A program made the translations under genes and the position numbers. Below the pieces are notes generated by a model. The model made no database searches. It was not told where the DNA came from and saw nothing but the letters and a program-made list of their open reading frames with translations. This document shows, one piece after another, positions 17,634-39,824 of a stretch of 41,243 nucleotides of DNA. Each line of letters starts with the position of its first letter. Positions within the stretch are counted from its first letter, which is position 1. The DNA is taken from NCBI GenBank assembly GCA_026982555.1, contig JALSGT010000150.1, positions 1-41,243 on the forward strand, in the 5' to 3' direction. This DNA is from Chromatiales bacterium (GTDB lineage: Bacteria; Pseudomonadota; Gammaproteobacteria; SZUA-152).

Positions 17634-18806
17634 ATGGATTTTGCGAAAGAGAGAATGAAGAAACAAAGTCGTCTGGAATCCCAGGACGGGTATAACAACA
17701 CAAGTGGCTGGAGCTTTGGTATTTGCCGCCCGATAACCGGGTTTGATCCGATTCCTTTCCAGGCGAAACATGGCATATGGCACCACACCTTTCCGGACAA
17801 AAAAGCGCTTGAAGACTTTATCGATGACTTCACCTTTTTTCGGTATGGTGGCCGCTGCCCCTCCTGGTATACCGTTCTGTGGGAAAGTGACTTGCTTTCC
17901 CAGGAAGAAAAAAATACCCACACGTTAAACGGAAAAAGCTATACCCCGGAAGCAGGTAAAGCGCGTGTGGTTGAATTACTGCATTCAGGTGAACTTGCCC
18001 TCTATGGCACCGACAACTGGATTCCGGCAAAAGACCGCAATCATCATCTGGTGCCCAAAGCACGCAGAAAAGTAGAATACTTGCCGGTAACCCCTCAGCC
18101 TTATTCCTTAGGGCCACATGACATGCCAGGAGTTGAGCCACCGGCACGGGTGAGCAAAAGCGCAACAGAAAGGCGCAAGGAAAATCACCAGGAACAGAAA
18201 CGGGATGAGAAAATTGATCTGAGCACGTTTGACGAAATATATGCTAAGACTCCAGCAGCCAAATCAGAAATTGATTCAATGGCCGATGAAATTTCTGAAA
18301 TGTCCGGAGGTCAGGTAGCTAAAGCACCAATAAAGTCTCGAGAACGAGCAATCCAAAAAATTATGGATGATTATGGTGGGGATACTAAACGAATAAAAGA
18401 CTTAGCACGAAACACTATAATTGTATCCCCTGATAAAATAAACCCAGTGGTTACTGAATTGGCTAAGCATGGCGCTAGCGTCAAGGTCATCAATGGAGCT
18501 ACGGACCCACTAGGTTATAGCGGCGTTAACTCCACCATTAAAACCCAAGCTGGAATTTTTGGCGAAGTACAAGTGAACACTCCGGCAATGATTTATGCGA
18601 AAGAGCCTGAATCGATAGCAAAAGCCTTGCCTGGTAACGACTTGTATAACTCTATTGCGGTCAAAGCGAAAATCCCTGGGGGGCAAGGCCATAAACTCTA
18701 TGAACAATGGCGTATATTGCCAGCCTCTGACCCTGGGCGTTCAGTAATTGAGACGAAGAGTAAAGCTTATTATGATGTTGTAAGGAGTTCCATTTATGGC
18801 AATTAA
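17634..18806 (+). CDS. RelA/SpoT-fold toxin-like protein with an unknown N-terminal domain
   Basis: The 390-residue protein has two parts. Residues 1-165 (SGWSFGICRPITGFDPIPF, then aromatic-rich PSWYTVLWESD) match no family I recognise, and there is no signal peptide, PAAR or MIX-type sequence that I can see. A charged linker (about 170-215) follows. Residues 230-375 carry RelA/SpoT synthetase-like motifs: APIKSRERAIQKIMDDYGGD, RIKDLARNTIIV, GYSGVNSTI, then GEVQVNT with the expected catalytic Glu311, and HKLYEQWR. It should transfer pyrophosphate from ATP to a nucleotide or RNA end. Toxic relatives include toxSAS proteins and the T6SS effector Tas1. GC drops near the domain start. It overlaps the next gene by 11 bases and is linked to an HD hydrolase gene. 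No good ribosome site is seen; ATG 17655 is an alternative start. Confidence 0.75.
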   Translation: MDFAKERMKKQSRLESQDGYNNTSGWSFGICRPITGFDPIPFQAKHGIWHHTFPDKKALEDFIDDFTFFRYGGRCPSWYTVLWESDLLSQEEKNTHTLNGKSYTPEAGKARVVELLHSGELALYGTDNWIPAKDRNHHLVPKARRKVEYLPVTPQPYSLGPHDMPGVEPPARVSKSATERRKENHQEQKRDEKIDLSTFDEIYAKTPAAKSEIDSMADEISEMSGGQVAKAPIKSRERAIQKIMDDYGGDTKRIKDLARNTIIVSPDKINPVVTELAKHGASVKVINGATDPLGYSGVNSTIKTQAGIFGEVQVNTPAMIYAKEPESIAKALPGNDLYNSIAVKAKIPGGQGHKLYEQWRILPASDPGRSVIETKSKAYYDVVRSSIYGN

Positions 18807-19026
18807 AACTGGAAAATACTTAAATACAAAAAATATCTATATTGATTACCCATTCGAAAAAGTTATGTTCAGACGCATGAAAACAGATGGTTCAATTTAC
18901 AGAAAATTTTATGGTGAAGAGGAATCTCCTGATTCAGTGTCGCATGATAACAAATTGTTTAACGATGCCTTATTATCAGGTGATGAGATAACCCAAGAAA
19001 AATATATGATAGGAAAAGCAGATTGA
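18796..19026 (+). CDS. 76-aa protein of unknown function between toxin-like and HD genes
   Basis: I do not recognise this protein. It is small, charged and soluble, with an aromatic and basic first half (YIDYPFEKVMFRRMKTDGSI) and an acidic second half (GEEESPDSVSHDN, then LLSGDEITQEKY). The ATG at 18796 lies inside the toxin gene, overlapping its last 11 bases, with AAGGAG nine bases upstream. Its TGA overlaps the TTG start of the HD gene. The tight coupling on both sides makes it part of the cassette, so it could be an immunity or accessory protein. Its base composition is AT-rich like the HD gene. A real gene is supported by the ribosome site, the overlaps and the codon-like composition. 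Confidence 0.75.
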   Translation: MAIKTGKYLNTKNIYIDYPFEKVMFRRMKTDGSIYRKFYGEEESPDSVSHDNKLFNDALLSGDEITQEKYMIGKAD

Positions 19027-19463
19027 GCAATCTAGACAAAGCTATTGCTGTCGCTACCGAGGCACATACTGGACAGACTGATAAGGCCGGTCAGCCTTAT
19101 ATTTTGCATCCATTGCGACTGATGCTTAAGTTTCAAGTTGAAATTGAAATGATAGTGGCTGTAATGCATGATGTAATTGAAGATAGTAATTTTACACTTA
19201 ATGATTTAAAAAAACTTGGGTTTTCCGAAATTATTTTGGAAGCTATTGACTATTTATCAAAGAAAGATAATGAGAGCTATGAAACTTTCATCTCACGGTT
19301 ATCAGAAAACAAGTTGGCCAGAAAAATAAAAATTGAGGACATCAAAGATAACTTGAACTTAGCTAGGCTTGATAAAATCACCGATAAAGACTTGGCCAGG
19401 GTTAAAAAATATCATCAAGCATTAAAACTGTTAACTAATAATATCGGCAAACCTAAATTATAA
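19023..19463 (+). CDS. small alarmone hydrolase (SpoT/MESH1-type HD domain), probable antidote
   Basis: At 146 residues this is a stand-alone HD hydrolase of the RelA/SpoT type: AHTGQTDKAGQPYILHPLRL, then MHDVIED. His29, His49-Asp50 and the Glu53-Asp54 pair align with the Mn-binding and catalytic residues of SpoT and MESH1. KIEDIKDNLNLARLDK fits the later conserved Asp-Asn site. It should remove the 3'-pyrophosphate from ppGpp-like alarmones. Family members act as antitoxins to RelA-fold toxins (type IV, by destroying the product). The TTG start overlaps the previous stop by four bases with AGGA upstream. GC is strikingly low, about 27% in one 60-base stretch, unlike the chromosome around it. 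It is shorter than MESH1 but the core is complete. Confidence 0.85.
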   Translation: MSNLDKAIAVATEAHTGQTDKAGQPYILHPLRLMLKFQVEIEMIVAVMHDVIEDSNFTLNDLKKLGFSEIILEAIDYLSKKDNESYETFISRLSENKLARKIKIEDIKDNLNLARLDKITDKDLARVKKYHQALKLLTNNIGKPKL

Positions 19464-27493: not shown

Positions 27494-27850
27494 ATGGCGC
27501 TTTTACACGCCCAACCCATTGATAATAACGCTGTTCTTTCTGAGGCGCTGTTAAATACGGGCAAGGCATTAGGTATGACACAGGCTCAGGTAGGCAATGT
27601 TATTGGCAAAGATCGCACGACGCTGAGTCGCGGTCTTTCGCCCACCAGCAAGGCAGGCGAGCTGGCATTGCTATTTATCCGTTGTTATCGCAGCCTTTAC
27701 GTTCTGATTGGTGGAAAACCTGACGACATGAAGCACTGGATGCATACCGAAAATCGTCACACTGGCGGCACCCCGGCCAAGCAGGTTCAGACTGTACAGG
27801 GGCTCAACCACGTTCTTGAATATCTGGATGCCATGCGCGGAAAAATTTGA
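27494..27850 (+). CDS. Xre/MbcA/ParS-type antitoxin
   Basis: The 118-residue protein has an Xre-like helix-turn-helix (GMTQAQVGNVIGKDRTTLSRGL, about 28-50). The C-terminal MbcA/ParS/Xre toxin-binding domain includes ALLFIRCYRSLYVLIGGKPDDMKHWMHTENRHTGGTPAKQVQTVQGLNHVLEYLDAMRG. This combination is the standard antitoxin of RES-domain toxins. It should bind its toxin and repress its own promoter, which carries a strong -10 and a flanking inverted repeat. AAGGAGG nine bases before the ATG is a strong ribosome site, fitting the need for excess antitoxin. The toxin gene starts at its stop codon. Confidence 0.93.
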   Translation: MALLHAQPIDNNAVLSEALLNTGKALGMTQAQVGNVIGKDRTTLSRGLSPTSKAGELALLFIRCYRSLYVLIGGKPDDMKHWMHTENRHTGGTPAKQVQTVQGLNHVLEYLDAMRGKI

Positions 27851-28602
27851 TGGACATCTGGGCAACGGTCAGGGACAGGGTGACTCCCGAACATCTTGAT
27901 AATCGTTTACTGAGAATTGTAGAAAGCCAGGAACAGATTGCCACCAACAGCCTTGTTGATGACCTCGAAAAACAGGCTGCACTGGAAGAAATGCTGGACA
28001 GTTCAAAACCACCCGCACCATCACTCAATGGCGCATTACATTACCTGCTGGCAACCCCCTTTCGTTACCCTCCTCTCCCCTATGGCTCCCGATTTGGCGC
28101 AAAATATGAGCCAAGCCTGTTGTACGGTTCCCTGACAGAGGAAACAGCGTTTGCAGAAACCGGGTATTACCGCTTTTTGTTCTGGTCGGGAATGAGTACA
28201 CCGCCACCATCCAACAAACTCATTACCCAGCACACCCTTTTTTCTGTCCGCTACACGACGACTGCCGGGCTGAAACTTCAAAAGTTTCCTTTTAGTGACT
28301 ACCGGGATCAATTATTAAACCCTGTCAGCTACGAAGACACACAAAACCTGGGGCGCGCAATGCGTGAACACGGGATTGCTGCCTTTGAATATTTATCGGC
28401 ACGGGATTGTAATCACGGCATCAATGCCGCACTTTTCAACGCGGGCGCATTGGCCGCCACAACACCCAAAAACCAACGTCAGTGGATTTGTGAAACCACA
28501 CACGACACTGTGCGATTTTATTCAATGGCGGATAAAACAGGCTATCGTTATTCCCTCGACACTTATTTTGTTGAAGGGGTATTTCCTGATCCGGCAGTGT
28601 AG
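27850..28602 (+). CDS. RES-domain NAD+ phosphorylase toxin
   Basis: The 250-residue protein carries the RES core: FRYPPLPYGSRFGAKYEPSLLYGSLTEETAFAETGYYR, with the named Arg in SRFG and Glu in EETAFAE. The Ser lies in AFEYLSARD further on. RES toxins degrade NAD+, as in the MbcT/Res systems. An N-terminal region of about 70 residues precedes the core. The start is the ATG at 27850, whose A is the last base of the antitoxin TGA. The ORF track counts a TTG one codon earlier. With the antitoxin it forms a type II pair controlled from one promoter. Confidence 0.92.
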   Translation: MDIWATVRDRVTPEHLDNRLLRIVESQEQIATNSLVDDLEKQAALEEMLDSSKPPAPSLNGALHYLLATPFRYPPLPYGSRFGAKYEPSLLYGSLTEETAFAETGYYRFLFWSGMSTPPPSNKLITQHTLFSVRYTTTAGLKLQKFPFSDYRDQLLNPVSYEDTQNLGRAMREHGIAAFEYLSARDCNHGINAALFNAGALAATTPKNQRQWICETTHDTVRFYSMADKTGYRYSLDTYFVEGVFPDPAV

Positions 28603-35959: not shown

Positions 35960-36028
35960 CTAACGATAAAAAGCAAAGAAAAACTAACATCACCGCCCGA
36001 ACCACCTTATTGAAAGAAAAACGACATA

Positions 36029-36065
36029 CCAATATACCGCCAAAACTATTTTGGCGGTATATTGG
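36029..36065. repeat. perfect 17-bp hairpin with a 3-base loop
   Basis: CCAATATACCGCCAAAA is followed by CTA and its exact reverse complement. It lies 10 bases before the ATG of the regulator remnant and about 70 bases after the sulfurtransferase stop. On the plus strand no T tract follows. On the minus strand TATGTCGTTTTTC follows, which is only loosely terminator-like. It may be a decayed operator or a terminator. Confidence 0.65.
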
Positions 36066-36074
36066 CAGAAGAAA

Positions 36075-36392: not shown

Positions 36393-36422
36393 GGTGGAAC
36401 CGCTGCGCTTGTTCCACCCTGC
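36393..36422. repeat. GGTGGAAC hairpin repeat (first of an inverted pair)
   Basis: GGTGGAACCGCTGCGCTTGT continues into TCCACCCTGC, the same unit and orientation as 26310-26339, including the CTCTTTCC flank. Its opposite-facing partner lies 87 bases away. Confidence 0.75.
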
Positions 36423-36508: not shown

Positions 36509-36538
36509 GTAGGGTGGAACAAGCGCAGCGGTTCCACC
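36509..36538. repeat. GGTGGAAC hairpin repeat (second of an inverted pair)
   Basis: GTAGGGTGGAACAAGCGCAG continues into CGGTTCCACC, with the same preceding AAAACC as at 26105. The order of the two units here is the reverse of that at 26105/26310, so the pairs were not made by one simple duplication. Confidence 0.75.
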
Positions 36539-36672: not shown

Positions 36673-38208
36673 TTAAAGCAATGGTTTAATCGGCATAAAC
36701 TGCCAAAAGAAAACCCGCCATTGCTTCCATGATGACGCAAATGAATCCGGGTCATCATACAGGGCATTCCAACTATTCGTTGGTCCCATATCAGTTTGGA
36801 TAAGTTGTTCTACTTTTTTCGCAATCTGTTTATTGCGAACAATAATGCCCACTTCTGTATTAAGGTTTTCAGAACGCGGATCCAGATTATAAGTGCCGAT
36901 ATAAACCGTTTCTGAATCAATCACCATAGTCTTGGCATGCAGAGCAAAAACCGGGCGAGACTTTTTTATATCGTCGTAACGGTGTAAAAGCTGTTCTTGC
37001 GTCGCGGGATCTGGTTTATATTCAAATATTTGTAAACCCATATTCAATAACTTTTTACGCTGATTTTTGTAACCGCTGAAGGCCTGTATATTATCGGTTG
37101 ATGCAAGAGAGTTGGTGCTGATTTGTATAGAAACACCTCGCTTTTGTGTTCGTCGAAATAATGACTCCGCTTTTTTACTCAAAACCAGATAAGGCGTCTG
37201 GATCACAATTTTATGCTTTGATTTTTCAACCAGCATTGCCAATTCAGCCGTTGTAATACCTCCTCCACCCAGTGAAAAGCGCCGGTTATTTTTCCCGGGC
37301 GTATCGCTGACAAATCGGGCATCAGTCCATATCACTTCTTCTGTCAGCGCTTGAAAGGCAGCAGGCACATTCTCAATGGACTTTCGCACTTCAGGCTCAA
37401 AATTATCAGGCGATTGTGCGTATTTATGTAATTCCTGATAAATTTCCTGCACCTCTGTATCATTTATTGATACATTTTTTTGCAAAATCCCCAGGCCATC
37501 AAACAAATCATTAACCTCAACGCTTAACTCACTGCGCCAGAATTGCTCAAAACTCCATACCATTTTTTCGACAACATTACCCAACACCAGAATGTCTCGA
37601 TCACGGAAATTATATTCATTATTATAATCAAAATATTCATCAGCCATATTCCGACCACCTGTGATGGCAACCTTGCCATCCACAATAAATGTTTTGTCAT
37701 GCATGCGTTGATTAACGCCTCGAAAATCAGTCACCACATTCAAAACACGCTTATGAATCGGTGTCCCTACAGAATGTTGTGGATTATAGATTTTAATAAA
37801 TACATTTGGGTGCAAAGCAAGGGCAAGCAACGTTTTATCGGGCGCGTCAATCAATAAATCATCAACAATCACTCGCACCTTCACTCCACGGTTTGCCGCA
37901 CGCAACAGAGCTTCCGTTGCCAAAATACCAATATTATCGGTACTCCAGATAAAATATTGGACTTCAATGCTTTGCTGTGCATGATCTGCCAACCATGCCC
38001 GCGCCAAAAGCGCCTCTTCGCCTTTATCCAGTACAAGTACGCCTGTTAACCCGTCATGGACTTTGATTTGCTCATCAATATAAGAGAAATTTAATGGCTC
38101 AGCGAGCGCAGAACTTTGTCCAGGCGTAAGGAATAATAGCTGAGTTACTAAACTTAGCAAAAAGACAATACGGATTTTTGAGGCATTAAAACCAGACGAA
38201 TAATGCAT
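36673..38208 (-). CDS. phospholipase D family protein (cardiolipin synthase ClsC-like)
   Basis: The 511-residue protein has two HKD motifs: HDKTFIVDGKVAITGGRNMADEYF near residues 166-190, and HAKTMVIDSETVYIGTYNLDPRSENLNTE near 424-453. Both catalytic His-Lys-Asp sets are intact. IEVQYFIWSTDNIGILATEALLRAANRGVKVRVIVDD near residue 75 is typical of the ClsC/YmdC group, which makes cardiolipin from two phospholipids. An N-terminal hydrophobic segment (about 12-32) may be a signal or anchor. It is the last of three minus-strand genes, starting one base after the stop of the ceramidase-like gene. It could instead be a phospholipase, since the HKD set does not separate the reactions. Confidence 0.88.
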   Translation of the reverse strand: MHYSSGFNASKIRIVFLLSLVTQLLFLTPGQSSALAEPLNFSYIDEQIKVHDGLTGVLVLDKGEEALLARAWLADHAQQSIEVQYFIWSTDNIGILATEALLRAANRGVKVRVIVDDLLIDAPDKTLLALALHPNVFIKIYNPQHSVGTPIHKRVLNVVTDFRGVNQRMHDKTFIVDGKVAITGGRNMADEYFDYNNEYNFRDRDILVLGNVVEKMVWSFEQFWRSELSVEVNDLFDGLGILQKNVSINDTEVQEIYQELHKYAQSPDNFEPEVRKSIENVPAAFQALTEEVIWTDARFVSDTPGKNNRRFSLGGGGITTAELAMLVEKSKHKIVIQTPYLVLSKKAESLFRRTQKRGVSIQISTNSLASTDNIQAFSGYKNQRKKLLNMGLQIFEYKPDPATQEQLLHRYDDIKKSRPVFALHAKTMVIDSETVYIGTYNLDPRSENLNTEVGIIVRNKQIAKKVEQLIQTDMGPTNSWNALYDDPDSFASSWKQWRVFFWQFMPIKPLL

Positions 38209-38209
38209 A

Positions 38210-38995
38210 CTATTTTATGGTGTTATTGACAGTACCGTTATCATAGCGGCTAATGCTCCAGACCGCCAACAGGAAAGCAATCCCGGAAAAAGATGCGATA
38301 ACATGTTTTATTGTATGGCCACTGACACCCAGAACATCATAAATATCAGTATCATAATTTTCCACCAGTTTAGCCGTGAGATACAGCCCCAGGATCAACC
38401 AGATATATTTCTGTTGGTAACGTGATACCGGAAACAGCAACAATATGAGGGGTATCAATATTATGGGTAAAAACTGTACAACTGCATAAAAACGAAGATC
38501 CCCAAAACCCATAGCTTCTGTATATGACCAATAAAATACCGATAATACCCCGATGAATAAAAGTGGCCATAATACGGCCCTACCCAGTCTCTGACTAAGA
38601 TGAAACCATAGGATAAATGAAAAAAAGGCCATAAATGATACTGTCATTGGCAACCGGTCCCATAACAGCGTTTCATTGGTTGGTGAAAGGTGATAATAAG
38701 CCGAACCAAGCCCGGTTAATATCAAACCAATGAAAAATATCAGAACCGGTATTTTATAAACTGTACAAGATTTTTCTGGCAAATACCTTCTGACGATAAC
38801 AAAGCCAAGAATACCGATGATGACAAAAGGGATATTTGACAAAACATTCCATGCATTGGGGATACCCATTTTTGTCTGTCCATCAGCAAACAGATGATAA
38901 CTGGCATCCTGAGCAATGGGCTCAATAAAGAATACTGTGACCAGTATAATTACCGATATCAGCTGTAATATTTTCAGCTTCACATTGCGGCTCAT
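38210..38995 (-). CDS. ceramidase-like (CREST superfamily) membrane protein
   Basis: The 261 residues contain about seven membrane helices. The CREST pattern is visible: NAWNVLSNIPFVIIGILG, GSAYYHLSPTNETLLWDRLPMTVSFMAF and GHTIKHVIASFSGIAF. They supply the conserved Ser, Asp and three His residues (SAYYH, WDR, HTIKH) that bind zinc in alkaline ceramidases, adiponectin receptors and their bacterial relatives. It should hydrolyse an amide or ester bond in a membrane lipid. True ceramides are not expected in most such bacteria, so the substrate may be another acyl lipid. It lies between a hydrolase and a phospholipase D-like gene with gaps of two and one bases. Confidence 0.85.
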   Translation of the reverse strand: MSRNVKLKILQLISVIILVTVFFIEPIAQDASYHLFADGQTKMGIPNAWNVLSNIPFVIIGILGFVIVRRYLPEKSCTVYKIPVLIFFIGLILTGLGSAYYHLSPTNETLLWDRLPMTVSFMAFFSFILWFHLSQRLGRAVLWPLLFIGVLSVFYWSYTEAMGFGDLRFYAVVQFLPIILIPLILLLFPVSRYQQKYIWLILGLYLTAKLVENYDTDIYDVLGVSGHTIKHVIASFSGIAFLLAVWSISRYDNGTVNNTIK

Positions 38996-38997
38996 GA

Positions 38998-39777
38998 TTA
39001 TTCCTGTTTCTTCAGAATCGCGTTTTTTCGATGGAATTTTCCATTCTGCAGATAATGTATTGTCTGACGAATCACTTCGTTACTCGACATGATCATCGGG
39101 TGCGTATGCGGCACAATCAAATAATCTGACATTCCCGCCACTTTAGCCCGCTCAACAGATACTTTACCATCATCATCGCCTGGAATGAGGGTGGATAAAA
39201 TCAGATTAATACTCTTGTTACCCGTTATGACACCAACAGAATAATCCACAGCCCCCAGACTGTTCGGCAGGCTTTCCGCTGATGTACCCAATTGCTGCCC
39301 TGCCGGACCATTAAATGCGTAAAACCCTGGAGAGCCTGCCAGTTTATCAACAATTTCACTCCCCTGGTTGGGAGGGCTCAACATCACAACATGACCTAAA
39401 TTATCCAATAAATGATTAGCCAGATAATAGCGAACCAAAATCCCTCCCATGGAATGAGTGACGAAATGTATTTTTTTTGGCTGTACAGACTGGCATTTCT
39501 CCACCTCTTTTGTCACATGCTCTTCTGCCAGCTTTTCAATTGTCTTTTTCCTTGATGGATAATCAACGTTAATAACATGATAGCCTGATTTACGCAGTGA
39601 TTTTTCCATGGCTGAAAATGAACGATTACTTCTGGCCAGCCCATGAAGCAATACAACACATTCATTTTCGTTATCAGCCATGGGCATTTCGTTATATTTT
39701 TCCATCGAAAAAACAGGGTTTGTTACACTCTGCATTATAATGTATAAAAAAATAATGAATATCTGTTTTATTTTCAT
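38998..39777 (-). CDS. exported alpha/beta hydrolase (lipase-like)
   Basis: This 259-residue protein has an N-terminal signal segment (about 4-24) and an alpha/beta hydrolase core: CVVLLHGLARSNRSFSAMEKSL, VTHSMGGILVRYYL with the nucleophile Ser near residue 111, and GDDDGKVSVERAKV with a candidate acid. HTHPMIMSSNEVI carries the catalytic His near 228. LSPPNQGSE also fits lipases of the PGAP1/LipA-like esterase group. It likely acts in the periplasm or on the outer membrane on an acyl ester. It is the first gene of a three-gene run with the ceramidase-like and phospholipase D-like genes, suggesting joint lipid turnover. Confidence 0.88.
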   Translation of the reverse strand: MKIKQIFIIFLYIIMQSVTNPVFSMEKYNEMPMADNENECVVLLHGLARSNRSFSAMEKSLRKSGYHVINVDYPSRKKTIEKLAEEHVTKEVEKCQSVQPKKIHFVTHSMGGILVRYYLANHLLDNLGHVVMLSPPNQGSEIVDKLAGSPGFYAFNGPAGQQLGTSAESLPNSLGAVDYSVGVITGNKSINLILSTLIPGDDDGKVSVERAKVAGMSDYLIVPHTHPMIMSSNEVIRQTIHYLQNGKFHRKNAILKKQE

Positions 39778-39791
39778 ACTGATTTTTCCAC

Positions 39792-39824
39792 AAAAACAGG
39801 ACAGGTTTCCTACCCTGTCCTGTT
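39792..39824 (-). terminator. rho-independent terminator after the 445-aa membrane protein gene
   Basis: On the minus strand AACAGGACAGG and CCTGTCCTGTT pair perfectly over 11 bp around an eight-base loop, and TTTTT follows. It ends the transcript that comes from the right edge of the window and isolates the lipid operon, which must have its own promoter nearby. Confidence 0.8.

Follow-up and report, generated by a model that had tools for sequence, protein, structure and literature searches.

A three-gene operon of predicted lipid enzymes

The window analysed here is a 41,243-nucleotide stretch from the genome assembly of a Chromatiales bacterium (contig JALSGT010000150.1). On its minus strand lie three genes, transcribed in the order abH, CER and PLD, whose coordinates agree exactly with those first assigned. 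The first, abH (38998..39777), encodes a putatively exported alpha/beta-hydrolase of 259 aa that resembles lipases and esterases, CER (38210..38995) encodes a 261-aa integral membrane protein of the ceramidase-like CREST superfamily, and PLD (36673..38208) encodes a predicted secreted two-HKD transphosphatidylase of the ClsC type, 511 aa in length. The genes nearly abut, as the first-pass annotation had described, with a gap of 2 bases between abH and CER (38996-38997) and of 1 base between CER and PLD (38209). An AGGA-like ribosome site precedes CER, and the CER/PLD junction reads TAG-T-ATG, a start that suggests coupled translation of PLD.

Comparison with relatives gave dN/dS values of 0.14-0.21 for abH, 0.15-0.22 for CER and 0.07-0.09 for PLD, all well below 1, which places the three genes under purifying selection. 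That each gene carries an intact catalytic set, as had been proposed, is borne out by alignments of relatives, where the catalytic residues of all three proteins are invariant. As the arrangement recurs in several independent assemblies, we ruled out chance adjacency and an assembly artefact.

A gene for a DUF2157-like membrane protein, whose Pfam match is under the curated cut-off, lies 60 bases upstream of abH. We rejected it as a member of the operon because a hairpin with an 11-bp stem (39795..39824, minus strand) intervenes and because the gene is not adjacent in one of the relatives (G002). The hairpin is probably the end of the upstream transcription unit, and three other genomes (G003, G007 and G009) have a hairpin of different sequence at the equivalent place. 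Together, the hairpin and the arrangement in G002 delimit the conserved unit to abH-CER(-PLD). A consensus scan found no convincing promoter for the operon: it gave 21 matches, where shuffled sequences gave 14.8 (sd 3.3).

Downstream of PLD is a perfect 28-nt inverted repeat with arms 90 nt apart (36393-36420 and 36511-36538). Both arms are themselves palindromic (GGTGGAAC...GTTCCACC), and the element is possibly REP-like or MITE-like. A perfect 17-nt hairpin at 36027-36067, followed on the minus strand by a T-rich tail, is terminator-like. Elsewhere in the window, a gene near valS encodes a 390-aa protein that weakly resembles head-morphogenesis proteins of phages, and beside it lies a gene for an HD-type phosphohydrolase that matches a phage family; this pair (17634-19463) is possibly a phage-derived remnant or an effector-like gene. 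An RES-domain protein, the toxin type of RES-Xre pairs, is encoded at 27847-28602.

abH has a lipase fold and CER the fold of an alkaline ceramidase

The abH protein has Pfam matches to Abhydrolase_1/6 (34 bits), with no specific family model above its cut-off, and a putative N-terminal signal peptide. Its AlphaFold model (pLDDT 81.7) matches lipases from Proteus, Pseudomonas and Streptomyces at E values of about 1e-8 to 1e-6. The nucleophile, S109 (39451..39453, minus strand), sits within T-H-S-M-G-G and is invariant in alignment A2, as are the other residues of the predicted S109-D203-H226 triad. With the fold, the Ser-Asp-His triad and the HG motif of the oxyanion hole, abH has the features that define alpha/beta-hydrolase lipases and esterases.

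CER scores 43.1 bits against the Pfam Ceramidase model (PF05875; cut-off 32.5) and has seven core transmembrane helices preceded by one N-terminal transmembrane helix. Its SxxxH motif (S98 and H102; 38690..38704, minus strand) is invariant in 24 sequences and has the spacing of S77 and H81 in human ACER3. D113 (38657..38659, minus strand), also invariant, follows H102 by 11 residues, as D92 follows H81 in ACER3, and the invariant HxxxH motif (H227 and H231; 38303..38317, minus strand) corresponds to ACER3 H217 and H221 and would supply zinc ligands. All five of these ACER3 residues are required for its activity (PMC9436119). A PDB sequence search with CER returned nothing useful; however, a fold search with the AlphaFold model (pLDDT 91.9) found ACER3 (6g7o, E 4.2e-4, TM 0.62) as the sole hit below E 0.001. 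The seven core helices, SxxxH, Asp and HxxxH, seen across 24 homologues, are the defining features of the CREST superfamily. CER belongs with those bacterial CREST proteins that have no assigned substrate; Pei et al. described bacterial groups of unknown function close to the alkaline ceramidases, and found gene neighbours uninformative for the two closest (PMC3146951).

Lysine and arginine residues of CER fall on the N-terminus, on loops 2, 4 and 6 and on the C-terminus, and acidic residues on loops 1, 3, 5 and 7, which carry the active site. By the positive-inside pattern the active site should therefore face the periplasm, comparable to the luminal site of ACER3 (PMC9436119). This topology, like the export of abH and PLD, was read by sequence inspection and residue counts rather than with dedicated predictors.

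PLD resembles cardiolipin synthases of the ClsC type

PLD matches PLDc_2 twice (132.9 bits), and its two HKD motifs, H170-K172-D177 (37678..37701, minus strand) and H424-K426-D431 (36916..36939, minus strand), are invariant in alignment A3. Its alignment to E. coli ClsC is collinear over 426 aa (33% identity, 208 bits), which together with the paired HKD motifs assigns it to the ClsC type, and this similarity makes cardiolipin-type headgroup exchange likelier than degradative phospholipase D activity. Scores against the NCBIfam cardiolipin synthase equivalog models fall below their cut-offs (TIGR04265, 103.5 of 290 bits; ClsB, 87.3 of 281 bits). The first-pass annotation named three types of lipid enzyme, and these do form a selected unit, with the amendment that PLD is ClsC/cardiolipin-synthase-like and not a generic phospholipase D. 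The protein has a putative signal peptide, and from its sequence we infer a periplasmic transphosphatidylase. A related case is ClsO, a ClsC-like exported enzyme once misread as a secreted phospholipase, which makes cardiolipin at the outer-membrane surface of Acinetobacter and is widespread in Proteobacteria (PMC12846801). Residues 1-40 of PLD hold no Cys and thus no lipobox, so that PLD is not a lipoprotein of the ClsO kind.

We rejected the idea that the lineage has no cardiolipin synthase besides PLD, since most relatives (including G002, G003, G007 and G009) have another PLD-family gene, which reads as ClsB-like by sequence. In the host genome, which is 73% complete, the operon copy is the only PLD-family gene seen. 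The operon copies group as a single clade in a tree built from PLD homologues; nearest to this clade are proteins from three other families and not those of a sister genus, a pattern that would fit either horizontal transfer or differential loss.

The operon is confined to one family

We compared 24 genomes of the host family and 369 gammaproteobacterial genomes. Within the family, abH and CER are adjacent in six genomes (the host G000, G002, G003, G007, G009 and G014), with their order kept across two genera and at least three genomic settings; in a seventh (G006) abH sits at the edge of a contig, and its neighbours are not visible. The first-pass annotation had proposed a search for conserved co-occurrence, and the genes are evidently not neighbours in this contig only. 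PLD is intact in four of the six (G000, G002, G007 and G009). In G003 it is interrupted by in-frame stops and its middle part is missing (L057, 3755-4527), next to an intact abH and CER, and in G014 no PLD follows CER. The operon is flanked by rhodanese and TolC genes in the window and in G003, by a rhodanese gene in G009, by purE-purK-type genes in G002 and by valS in G014, from which it follows that the unit moved, or was acquired more than once, or that its surroundings were rearranged.

Singly, the genes are common: among the 369 genomes, abH (E<1e-40) occurs in 50, CER in 41 and close PLD homologues in 11. At the 33 CER loci outside the host family, neither abH nor PLD adjoins CER in any, which rules out a trio conserved widely across Gammaproteobacteria, and the outside homologues of abH and PLD stand in equally mixed gene contexts. 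Other alpha/beta-hydrolases lie near CER at three of the 33 loci (L021, L024 and L083), a number that we judged informally to be not clearly above chance. Co-presence with abH is modestly raised for CER (12 genomes, Fisher p 0.006) and for PLD (5 genomes, p 0.009), both values being uncorrected for phylogeny. The trio thus looks like a lineage-specific arrangement, seen in some uncultured gammaproteobacteria, of enzyme types that are each already known.

Such a distribution could also arise if three envelope lipid enzymes with unrelated substrates had been gathered in one lineage and co-expressed, for instance under envelope stress, with no common pathway, an explanation that we regard as possible but doubtful. 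The solitary occurrence of each gene elsewhere, the lack of partners beside outside CER genes, the modest co-presence and the loss of PLD where abH-CER stays all agree with it. However, the gaps in the window are only one or two bases long, the arrangement has persisted in two genera at differing genomic locations, and the genes are under purifying selection, all of which suggests a benefit from joint expression.

The earlier proposal of a pathway dedicated to one unusual lipid, whether sphingolipid-like or of the N-acyl amino-acid kind, finds no support here: only one family has the unit, PLD is dispensable in G003 and G014, and the 33 outside CER loci lack partners. It is also unlikely, in our view, that the three enzymes (PLD as a secreted ClsC enzyme that is not a lipoprotein, CER as a CREST zinc amidase and abH as a lipase) form a dedicated periplasmic pathway and act in sequence on one N-acylated membrane lipid, either NAPE-like or an amino-ketone product of the biosynthetic cluster described below. 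If true, this would be the first case known to us of a bacterial CREST amidase whose substrate is assigned.

A ceramide source for CER is not supported

The ceramidase-like features of CER, namely its score above the Pfam cut-off and its ACER3 fold, raise the question of whether it is a true ceramidase in the turnover of a sphingolipid-like or ceramide-like lipid, as the first-pass annotation had suggested for the operon. We searched for serine palmitoyltransferase with the general AONS model TIGR01825, a search limited by the draft state of the genomes, and recognised no separate gene for it in the operon-bearing genomes. By context the hits are BioF, Kbl-like enzymes, N-terminally extended AONS proteins and a PKS-linked enzyme, and we rejected them as serine palmitoyltransferases. 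Of two genomes that bear the operon, G009 (96% complete) yields a BioF-type enzyme alone, and G002 (99% complete) yields BioF together with the PKS-linked enzyme and a single weak hit.

This PKS-linked enzyme is part of a cluster found in the host on contig C146 (locus L213, 137-11919, minus strand), in which a PKS gene (KS-AT-DH-KR-ACP) precedes genes for a PLP enzyme of the AONS type, an MMPL exporter, a LolA-like protein and a further protein of 400 aa. The cluster is a candidate for the synthesis and export of an amino-ketone lipid, and it is also present in G002, G003, G005, G006 and G007; 6 of the 12 genomes of the host genus carry it. Within the genus, five genomes have both cluster and operon, one the cluster only, one the operon only and five neither, a tally in which G006 is counted as operon-bearing and for which a two-sided Fisher test by hand, uncorrected for phylogeny, gives about 0.08.

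An amino-ketone lipid of this kind could conceivably serve as substrate for CER, and the tally within the genus leans the same way. However, no link was found across the 369 genomes: the PKS-AONS-type enzyme (E<1e-90) occurs in 12, among which CER is present in the host and G002 alone, and 39 CER genomes are without the enzyme. Together with the results for G009 and G002, this leaves a classic ceramide source unsupported. That Pei et al. assigned the bacterial CREST members to groups without a known function (PMC3146951) also counts against a ceramidase role. We consider sphingolipid turnover improbable.

Discussion

Our preferred reading, which is tentative and to which we give a probability of roughly 45%, is that abH, CER and PLD form a lineage-specific operon that remodels the acyl chains and headgroups of envelope glycerophospholipids from the periplasmic side. 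It draws on the gene order kept in six genomes and two genera, the low dN/dS values, the collinearity of PLD with ClsC, the ACER3 fold of CER and the lipase fold of abH. All three active sites would lie in the periplasm, judging from the signal peptides of abH and PLD and the positive-inside pattern of CER. Counting against this reading, PLD is broken in G003 and absent from G014 while abH-CER persists.

Enzymes of the ClsC family make cardiolipin from PG and PE. We propose that PLD works through a phosphatidyl-histidine intermediate: the phosphatidyl group, taken mainly from PE or PG, would pass onto PG to give cardiolipin, or alternatively onto water to give phosphatidic acid. The lipase-fold abH may strip acyl esters off displaced or damaged phospholipids. 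CER would be a zinc hydrolase, with zinc held by H102, H227 and H231, D113 as the base and S98 stabilising the oxyanion; its substrate would be a small amphiphile in the outer leaflet of the inner membrane, from which it would cleave an acyl chain. Cardiolipin would result, along with fatty acids for reuse, and no obligatory sequence of action among the three enzymes would be needed. Nor is one shared pathway required, given that all three genes are common on their own in unrelated genomes, beside a variety of neighbours.

Two further uses of the same enzymes can be envisaged. The set could break down extracellular lipids as a source of carbon and phosphate, as the apparent export of two of the three products and the bacterial lipase fold of abH would allow; however, CER is an inner-membrane protein, the conserved unit holds no gene for fatty-acid uptake or a phosphatase, and PLD has its nearest characterised relatives among biosynthetic enzymes (PMC12846801), so that we give scavenging little credence. 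The least probable use is a NAPE route, with abH removing O-acyl chains as ABHD4 does, PLD releasing N-acylethanolamine and CER cleaving its ceramide-like amide: the animal route has steps corresponding to all three activities, but a literature search found NAPE in animal and host contexts only and none for these bacteria, and a ClsC-type transphosphatidylase is better supported for PLD.

Envelope remodelling, if confirmed, would extend the recent finding of cardiolipin synthesis outside the inner membrane. It would also bear on the ceramidase-like bacterial CREST proteins, which are widespread and for which we found no assigned substrate in the literature: the partner set of a lipase and a cardiolipin-synthase-type enzyme points CER to envelope phospholipid turnover, a function testable in E. 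coli.

Each protein has a recognisable counterpart among known systems. CER differs from human ACER3 in its low identity (18%), its extra N-terminal helix and a host with no known ceramide, yet shares the fold (TM 0.62), the SxxxH...D...HxxxH residues with identical local spacing and a zinc site predicted to lie topologically outside. The matched structures are only about 15-20% identical to abH, whereas the alpha/beta-hydrolase fold and HSMG nucleophile elbow are those of true lipases from Proteus mirabilis, Pseudomonas aeruginosa and Bacillus (LipA), and sequence similarity to the Proteus lipase is detectable. E. coli ClsC, a cardiolipin synthase that uses PG and PE, has two HKD motifs as PLD does; unlike ClsC, PLD has a putative N-terminal signal peptide and is encoded beside abH and CER, where E. 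coli clsC follows ymdB. ClsO homologues carry a lipoprotein signal in place of the lipobox-free N-terminus of PLD, and PLD and Acinetobacter ClsO are otherwise alike in being ClsC-like two-HKD enzymes that are exported, putatively so in the case of PLD.
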